Shown here one piece after another: positions 12-40,942 of a stretch of 40,942 nt of DNA (the stretch's first letter is position 1; the number at the start of each line of letters is the position of its first letter). A program made the translations under genes and the position numbers. The DNA comes from Oligoflexia bacterium (GTDB taxonomy: Bacteria; Bdellovibrionota; UBA1018; CAIPTA01; JAALKR01), in assembly GCA_011087955.1 (NCBI GenBank), contig JAALKR010000018.1, forward strand, positions 1 to 40,942, read 5' to 3'. The notes beneath the pieces are model-generated. The model saw only the letters and a program-made list of their open reading frames with translations, was not told where the DNA came from and ran no database searches.

Positions 12-1019
12 ATGGCAAAGAAAGAACCAAAGAAAACCTCCAAGAAACCAAGCCCGCCTCCTCATCAGATTCATGACGCTCTCTTTAACGAAATATTTAG
101 TAATAAGAGGTATGGACTAGATCTCTTCCGTTCCGTCCTGACGGACGCAGAGTTTAAACTCTTCAACTGGAAGACACTCAGGCCAGAGGTCACAGTGTTC
201 ACAGATGACAGGGGGGTAGAGCGAAAGATTGATTTGTTGTTCTCAGTTCGAGTCAAGGAGTCGAAGGAGGAGGTGCGTATGCTTTTTATTCTGGAGCATA
301 AAAGCTATCAGGATTCAAAAGTTCTCCATCAGATTCTGAGGTACCAAACTCTGGCTTATAATCGTTGGAACTGGAAGTATCCAGTGATTCCGATTCTCGT
401 CTATCATGGACGGGAGAAGCACTGGAAGGGGAGCTTAAAGTTTCAGGATTCTATTAAGGGCCTCACCCCTTTGCTCAAGCAGAAATCTGGAAAAAACATC
501 CTTAATTTCGACTGCAAGCTCTTGAATATTCACGATATTCACTTGTATGGCGGTTTGAGCAAGAAATTGATTTCTAGACCAATTTTACTTATAATGAGTA
601 GGATATGGAACATCAGCGACAGGAACATCCAGTCGATGTTCAAGATGTTCCAGGCAGCCCAAACGAATACGGGTCTAAGTCCAAAGGAGCGCCGAGACCT
701 TACGGAAAAGGCAGTGGACTACCTTCGTGCAAAAGACCCAAAAGTTACAGCTCGGATTGTTAGAATTGAAAAAGAGGTTGTAGAAGAGGAGTACAGAATT
801 ATGCCAGCATTACAATATTCTTTGGATAAGGAACGAGAGGCAGGTCACAAGGCAGGCATCGAGAAAGGCCGTGAGGAAGGCCTGGAGGCAGGCCGTCAGG
901 ATACTGCGCTGCGACTACTCGAAGAAGGAGTTGATGCGAAGATCATTTGTCGATGCACCGGGCTTACTCCTGAATCTGTAGAGAAATTGCGCAAAAAGAA
1001 CGACAGCGAAACGGAGTAA
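12..1019 (+). CDS. Rpn family recombination-promoting nuclease / putative transposase (YhgA-like, PD-(D/E)XK)
   Basis: 335 aa ORF; N-terminal 'HDALFNEIFS', 'IDLLFSVR...MLFILEHKSYQD' (D...ExK nuclease core), 'ILRYQTLAYNRW', and the C-terminal 'GIEKGREEGLEAGRQDTALRLLEEGVDAKIICRCTGLTPESVEKL' tail typical of Rpn proteins. Confidence 0.9.
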   Translation: MAKKEPKKTSKKPSPPPHQIHDALFNEIFSNKRYGLDLFRSVLTDAEFKLFNWKTLRPEVTVFTDDRGVERKIDLLFSVRVKESKEEVRMLFILEHKSYQDSKVLHQILRYQTLAYNRWNWKYPVIPILVYHGREKHWKGSLKFQDSIKGLTPLLKQKSGKNILNFDCKLLNIHDIHLYGGLSKKLISRPILLIMSRIWNISDRNIQSMFKMFQAAQTNTGLSPKERRDLTEKAVDYLRAKDPKVTARIVRIEKEVVEEEYRIMPALQYSLDKEREAGHKAGIEKGREEGLEAGRQDTALRLLEEGVDAKIICRCTGLTPESVEKLRKKNDSETE

Positions 1020-1320: not shown

Positions 1321-3027
1321 ATGCCTATGCCTCTTGAGCAGCAACGCAAAGAACTTGAAATTAAGCATCGCCAGCAATTGGCTATGCTGAATGATGTGAG
1401 TAGCAAACTTCAGGGATTGATTGAGTCGGAGAATTTGTACAAGGAAATAGTGCATATTATTCAGGAACGGTTTCATTATTATCATAGTAGTCTGTGGACA
1501 GTGGACTCTATGCGCGCAGCTACGTTGCAGGCCCATAATGGTGACTATAAGCACATACTGAGTCCGGGCTTTGTTCTGAAAGACGAAGGTATTATCGGGC
1601 ACGTAATTAGTACAAACAAGCCCTATATTTCGAACGATATCTCCAAAGATCCGAATTTCTCTAGCCTAAAACTCCCCACGGAAACAAAGAGTTCACTCTG
1701 TGTCCCAGTGATGGGGGGCAAAGGCAAAATTAAAGCTCTAGTCAATATTGAATCGAGCCATGAGAATGAGTTTGATGATGAAGACTTGCATGTGATGGAA
1801 TCTGTAGCTTCGCTAGTTTCATTGGCACTGAATTCCGCACTTCTTTATAATGAGATCGATGATTTTAATAAGCACTTGAAAAAGACAATTGAAGAAAAGA
1901 CGTTAGAGCTGCGCAAAGCGCACGAACGAATTTTAGCGCAACAACGCCTATTGAAGAAAGAGAACCGTGCATTGCGGACAATTGTATCTAAGTCCTACAG
2001 TGACAAAGATATTCTCGGAAAGTCTCCTGCAATCACTTCACTTATATCGATGATTGATAAGATCGCACCGACAAGGGTTTCAGTTCTGATTCAAGGTGAA
2101 AGTGGCACCGGTAAAGAACTAGTAGCCCATCGAATCCATCAGCGCAGTGAGCGCTCGGATCGCCCATTCGTAGCAATCAACTGTGGAACGTTACAGGAAT
2201 CACTTCTAGAGAGTGAGCTTTTTGGCCACGAAAAGTGTGCATTCGCTGGCGCAATCAACCAAAAGATTGGTTTAGCTGAGACTGCCGACGGTGGAACTCT
2301 TTTCCTTGATGAGATTGGCGGGGTCTCACTTTCCTTACAAGCCAAGCTTCTACGCTTTATTCAGGAAAGTGAGCTATATCGCGTTGGCGGAAAGACGCCA
2401 ATCAAAGTGGATATTCGCATCCTCTCAGCAACGAATAAAGACCTAGAACAGGAAGTGCATAATGGAAAATTCCGCGAAGATTTATTTTACCGCCTGAATA
2501 CAATCACACTTCGCGTACCGCCCCTGCGTAAGCGGCCAGAAGATATTCCATTGCTAATCAATTACTTCCTGGAAAAATCGAATTTTGGTTCCCACCAAAT
2601 GCTTTCAGTTGAATCTAGAGCAATGGCCGCATTTCAGGCCTACAACTGGCCAGGAAACGTGCGCGAGCTACAAAACTCTATTGAGCGCCTAAAAATCTTG
2701 AGCGAAGGCGCCATTATTCACTTCGAAGATCTTCCGTTCAATATTCGTATGGCTAAACGAATCGCAGAAGGCAACACGAATAATACTATCACCCAAAGCA
2801 TAAAGCACATGACGCTGGAAGAGCTCGAGAAGAATCATATTTTGCAGATGCTCTCCTACCAGCAGGGCAATAAGACGAAGACTGCGAAGGTGCTCGGTAT
2901 CACAATTAAAACACTCTATAACAAATTACATCGTTACAGACTATTACAGCCCCAGGCAGAAAAGGATAGTAAGACCACCAGCCGCAAGAAAAATCCGGTG
3001 GCAGAAAAACCGTGGCCGACCCAATAA
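1321..3027 (+). CDS. GAF - AAA+ - Fis-type HTH transcriptional regulator (sigma-54 activator family, degenerate GAFTGA)
   Basis: Walker A GESGTGKE, Walker B GGTLFLDEIG, 'FREDLFYRLNTITLRVPPLRKRPEDIPLL', Fis HTH 'GNKTKTAKVLGITIKTLYNKLHRY', N-terminal GAF-like region. Confidence 0.93.
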   Translation: MPMPLEQQRKELEIKHRQQLAMLNDVSSKLQGLIESENLYKEIVHIIQERFHYYHSSLWTVDSMRAATLQAHNGDYKHILSPGFVLKDEGIIGHVISTNKPYISNDISKDPNFSSLKLPTETKSSLCVPVMGGKGKIKALVNIESSHENEFDDEDLHVMESVASLVSLALNSALLYNEIDDFNKHLKKTIEEKTLELRKAHERILAQQRLLKKENRALRTIVSKSYSDKDILGKSPAITSLISMIDKIAPTRVSVLIQGESGTGKELVAHRIHQRSERSDRPFVAINCGTLQESLLESELFGHEKCAFAGAINQKIGLAETADGGTLFLDEIGGVSLSLQAKLLRFIQESELYRVGGKTPIKVDIRILSATNKDLEQEVHNGKFREDLFYRLNTITLRVPPLRKRPEDIPLLINYFLEKSNFGSHQMLSVESRAMAAFQAYNWPGNVRELQNSIERLKILSEGAIIHFEDLPFNIRMAKRIAEGNTNNTITQSIKHMTLEELEKNHILQMLSYQQGNKTKTAKVLGITIKTLYNKLHRYRLLQPQAEKDSKTTSRKKNPVAEKPWPTQ

Positions 3028-40875: not shown

Positions 40876-40942
40876 GTATACCTAAAATGGAGATACGCCC
40901 AAAAGTTGTGGGTCAGAGCCTAGGCAACCCCCTCTTGGTTGG

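Follow-up and report, generated by a model that had tools for sequence, protein, structure and literature searches.

Can a nuclease gene from a very distant bacterium hold, within its own reading frame, a second gene for a protein that restrains the nuclease? The question is raised by an rpn gene at one end of the window, the whole 40,942-nucleotide stretch of DNA analysed here, whose host belongs to the Bdellovibrionota. The toxin-antitoxin design itself comes from E. coli, where Zhong et al. (2023; PMC10327210) proved the internal antitoxin, besides showing that a C. difficile gene expresses one, and what is new is a putative member of this kind in so distant a bacterium. On the evidence set out below, we regard the window gene as a candidate rpnL/rpnS gene-within-a-gene toxin-antitoxin locus and consider this reading likely to be right.

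The nuclease gene and the candidate start signal inside it

The gene (12–1019, forward strand) encodes a full-length RpnL-type protein of 335 amino acids, made up of a PD-(D/E)XK nuclease (PF04754) and a C-terminal oligomerisation domain. Its PF04754 match (E=3.3e-24), at 86 bits against a cut-off of 21, places it among the Rpn (YhgA-like, COG5464) nucleases; the TIGR01784 match, at 41.9 bits, falls under that model's cut-off of 52.1, and the NF007361 (RpnA) model also matches, more weakly than PF04754. Alignment with 43 homologues locates the catalytic motif, D74 ... E95-H96-K97 (231–302, forward strand), in columns that hold D in 42/43, E in 43/43, H in 42/43 and K in 27/43 sequences, with Q instead of K in the E. 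coli type. A phmmer search of the PDB with the window protein gave no match, PADLOC held no model convincingly matching it, and Foldseek on its full-length AF2 model, a low-confidence one (pLDDT 60) used for rough secondary structure only, returned weak matches to restriction-endonuclease folds. Position 12 adjoins the contig edge (G000:C22:1), so that the window does not show the Shine-Dalgarno (SD) sequence of the main start; on contig C45 the paralogue has no obvious strong SD at this start.

The original prediction had placed a second SD and start inside the gene, and the letters agree with it exactly: AAGAGGAG occupies 784–791 (forward strand), nine nucleotides follow, and an ATG stands at 801–803, in frame as codon 264, from which a C-terminal product of 72 residues (MPALQYSLDKEREAGHKAGIEKGREEGLEAGRQDTALRLLEEGVDAKIICRCTGLTPESVEKLRKKNDSETE; 801–1019, forward strand), the predicted RpnS antitoxin, would be made. 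A simple duplex model, the source of the SD energies given here, puts the pairing with the anti-SD at -8.6 kcal/mol; the site lies at the 90th percentile of accessibility among the gene's codons, and the 16S 3′-end motif that constitutes the anti-SD (GGATCACCTCCTT) is found in the source genome. Pairing of at least this strength precedes 5 of the 268 internal in-frame ATGs (1.9%) in the 38 window ORFs, two of the five being in the rpn gene itself, at 801 and at 279 (-12.7 kcal/mol). When the eight upstream codons (VVEEEYRI) were randomised by local codon usage, 32% of the synonymous recodings gave an SD as strong as that of 801 or stronger, because Glu-Glu-Glu is SD-like by nature, and the signal at 801 from the window gene alone is therefore weak, barely to be told from chance. 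The stronger SD-like site at 279 makes SD strength by itself a misleading guide in this gene. ATG279 was rejected as a true internal start, its column holding I, V or L in most homologues and M in 2/43, and its SD being buried (13th percentile of accessibility).

These figures lend weight to a reading by chance, in which a Glu run (GAA-GAG-GAG) in a charged helix mimics an SD before a structural Met and the full-length protein is the sole product. The recoding result (p=0.32) and the stronger match at 279 agree with it, as does the helix of the full-length model, which runs unbroken across M264; we nevertheless hold it to be quite improbable, for what the homologues indicate (see below). The gene also contains a promoter-like sequence, TTGATT-17-TATAAT (567–595, forward strand), 205 bp ahead of ATG801, which might drive a short rpnS transcript of the kind made in E. 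coli; with one such sequence found against 1.8 expected in shuffles, an internal promoter there does not rise above chance.

Conservation of the internal methionine

Single-protein scans of genome-contig and viral-contig collections gave no close homologues; 1/96 other relatives matched the window Rpn by protein, 10/369 genomes of the phylum carry Rpn, and the source genome is the sole member of its family in the collection compared. Because no close relatives were found, distant homologues served for the conservation test, namely 43 Rpn proteins from Bdellovibrionota, Leptospira plasmids and phages, Gammaproteobacteria and two Bacteroidota, about 20–47% identical to the window Rpn, a set limited to the collections searched and drawn from unevenly sampled lineages. 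The M264 column holds Met in 41/43 of them, encoded by ATG in 41/41, and ranks with D74, E95, H96 and Y111 among the most conserved, amid neighbouring residues that vary. Across Bdellovibrionota, Leptospira and Gammaproteobacteria, conservation of the putative internal start thus comes close to that of the active site.

In 31/41 genes no other in-frame start codon has as strong an SD as the M264-equivalent (mean fractional rank 0.05), and a synonymous-codon test, in which each cluster at 50% identity counted as one observation, found that codon choice favours an SD before it (p=0.0012, 10 clusters). The residues encoding this SD differ from lineage to lineage (KE, EEK, GED, KGG, YED): it is AAGGAGAG from KE in E. 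coli RpnA, AAAGGAGG from KGG in one Bdellovibrionota family, GGGGAGG from GED in Bacteriovoracales, and GAGG from YED in Leptospira, weaker (-5.9 kcal/mol) than that of the window, a variation for which protein function alone would hardly account. It is here that chance loses ground as an explanation, for a Met conserved amid changing neighbours, an SD spelled by different residues and a codon bias toward it across clusters all speak against mimicry by a Glu run, as do the stand-alone genes that begin at the equivalent Met. Conservation of the SD-ATG pair had been named beforehand as a test on which the original prediction could fall, and the pair survived in these distant homologues.

The Met is missing from the two Bacteroidota proteins (L156 and L165), and internal initiation at this site is therefore not universal. 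Bacteroidota rely little on SD sequences. L156, without the conserved internal Met, yet retains glycine tetrapeptides.

Closest to the window Rpn are the proteins of a Bacteriovoracales MAG (L151–L153; 40–47% identity), which share with it an EDRIM/KERIM start context with an SD and an SLD...G repeat region, but whose repeat units differ. The relative G162, of the same phylum as the source genome, has Rpn loci identical to those of a Bacteriovoracales record, and it is on this that the phylum name rests. The Leptospira plasmid and phage proteins (L086–L093), about 27% identical to it over their full length, have a conserved MTTAEKLRKEG start with GAGG upstream, and some are followed directly by a stand-alone C-domain gene. 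On two of the plasmids (L086, L088), genes annotated as 'hypothetical protein' at 2415–2657 overlap the rpn stop codon, and their products, stand-alone RpnS-like C-domains, are candidate second antitoxins. Leptospira phages of the LE1-like kind (L092, L093) themselves carry full-length rpn.

The predicted short product and its proposed action

In E. coli RpnA, M244 is the start of RpnA-S, as proven by mutation (PMC10327210), and it is with M244, from which the 49-residue chain of PDB 7TH0 begins, that M264 aligns. By the SD measure used here M244 comes first in RpnA, and so does its counterpart in each of RpnB, C, D and E. Stand-alone RpnS genes have this Met as their first residue: ypaA of E. 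coli, a neighbour of rpnE that is a second RpnE-S copy according to Zhong et al. (2023; PMC10327210); a gene on an E. coli plasmid, located downstream of rpn (L163); and one downstream of rpn in the relative G003, preceded by an SD (GGAGG) in GTGGAGGAAAAAATC-ATG. That this Met is so widely kept, usually has the best SD and coincides with the RpnA-S start supports the predicted gene-within-a-gene logic, and position 801 is very probably an internal translation start.

Like the E. coli RpnL-RpnS systems (RpnA-RpnE, RpnP2; Zhong et al., 2023; PMC10327210), the window gene appears to combine a PD-(D/E)XK N-domain, an internal in-frame SD and ATG at the homologous residue before the repeat helix and C-terminal domain, tetrapeptide repeats that vary in number, and stand-alone RpnS derivatives. 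It differs from them in overall sequence (about 20–25% identity), in a canonical E-x-K where E. coli has E-x-Q, and in the length of the predicted RpnS (72 residues against 49).

The predicted anatomy of the 72-residue product is that of an RpnS protein such as RpnA-S, with a long repeat helix and two short ones. Five glycine tetrapeptides, EAGH KAGI EKGR EEGL EAGR (837–896, forward strand), lie in the long first helix and start 12 residues after M264 (from residue 13 of the product), inside the range of 8–20 residues after the internal start in which RpnS repeats, the specificity element of these proteins, are placed (PMC10327210). Two short HTH-like C-terminal helices similar to those of RpnA-S (936–1001, forward strand) are suggested by the sequence and by AF2, a single-sequence model of the product (mean pLDDT 82) having helices at residues 3–41, 46–53 and 57–70, and the C-terminal part aligns with RpnA-S over 38 residues at 39% identity. 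Foldseek with this model found weak matches to HTH folds in the PDB, and 7TH0 was not among the top 50.

In the mechanism that we propose, the upstream start would yield the full PD-(D/E)XK nuclease and the internal SD and ATG (784–803) the 72-residue C-terminal domain alone, which would dimerise through its tetrapeptide-repeat helix with the matching helix of the full-length protein; the nuclease would be held inactive by the bound small protein, and repeat number would set the fit of antitoxin to toxin. Translation, inhibition, toxicity and phage defence at the window locus we infer from E. coli. Given the internal start, we have high confidence that its product would act as an antitoxin. 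The small protein could also be made and be no inhibitor at all, serving instead as an essential structural subunit, in the way that Cas11d serves Cas10d, or regulating transcription through its HTH-like end. Such roles would suit its HTH-like C-terminal helices, and the 2:2 complex that RpnS and RpnL form in E. coli makes a structural one conceivable (PMC10327210), but those RpnS proteins of E. coli that were tested block their cognate RpnL (PMC10327210) and the C-terminal sequence resembles RpnA-S, and we think this alternative very unlikely.

Less certain than the antitoxin reading is a candidate role in phage defence. No defence neighbours were found among the ten ORFs tested to the right, several of which are housekeeping genes, and the left flank lies beyond the contig end; one defence-type match to the right (1321–3027) covers the AAA-HTH part only of an RtcR-type regulator model. 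For the family at large, the conservation of the internal start suggests that self-encoded inhibition arose long ago and is common to most Rpn genes, and it offers a sequence rule, a Met before glycine tetrapeptides and preceded by an SD, that would predict RpnS proteins missed by annotation.

Other rpn copies in the source genome

The source assembly is of metagenome type (1.8 Mb in 45 contigs) and has at least four further rpn pieces at or near contig ends, several of them truncated or frameshifted; the window gene, at a contig end itself, stands among these decayed copies. Such company might mean that the locus too, left over from a multicopy rpn family, is in decay and has lost its function. 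The window copy, however, is on its sequence a full open frame with an intact catalytic motif, and the 5′ end of the gene differs from the C45 copy by six synonymous and two nonsynonymous changes, pointing weakly to purifying selection; loss of function strikes us as most improbable.

Repeats near the internal start vary in number between these close copies, as in RpnL-RpnS systems: there are five glycine tetrapeptides in the window gene and in the C38 copy, seven in C23 and three in C11, the last counted at the DNA level because a frameshift lies inside the repeat. Such differences among the paralogues of one genome make the idea of repeat specificity directly testable. The C23 and C11 copies lack everything upstream of about nucleotide 734–748 of the gene and keep the SD, ATG and repeats; that on C11 is broken by its frameshift, and that on C23, which runs off its contig, may be an intact stand-alone rpnS. 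Their SD-ATG context is identical to that of the window letter for letter, which was not counted as evidence because the paralogues are too similar. A solo rpnS from residue 261 on C38 was dismissed, the contig merely ending there.

A 110-nt flank (L051, 71–180; L042, 3770–3879) meets rpn at two different internal places, at nucleotide 748 of the gene on C11 and at a fragment of nucleotides 57–139 on C2, an arrangement that resembles the outcome of deletion or recombination among rpn copies. One may imagine from such copies an Rpn toxin-antitoxin network, in which 5′-truncated ones (that on C23, with seven units, for example) would act as stand-alone antitoxins, repeat number would pick the full-length Rpn to be silenced, and recombination between dispersed copies would create new pairs; we offer this as a speculative idea, unlikely as a whole.

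Other sequences recur beside these genes. On C23 the C-terminal rpn fragment (L064, 231–800) adjoins a sequence judged by eye to resemble BspA-type leucine-rich repeats, itself repeated at many contig ends, and the last ~50 bases of the window (40890–40942) recur at many other contig ends, the assembly breaking at dispersed repeats. A non-coding block downstream of the window rpn (1080–1250) recurs at three other contig ends (L141 on C38, L145 and L150 on C5, L146 on C4); its copies are bounded by TTAGAAGCC ... GGCTTCTAA, with 9-bp inverted ends, the window copy having GGTTTCTAA, features that point to a small dispersed repeat element travelling with rpn or next to it.
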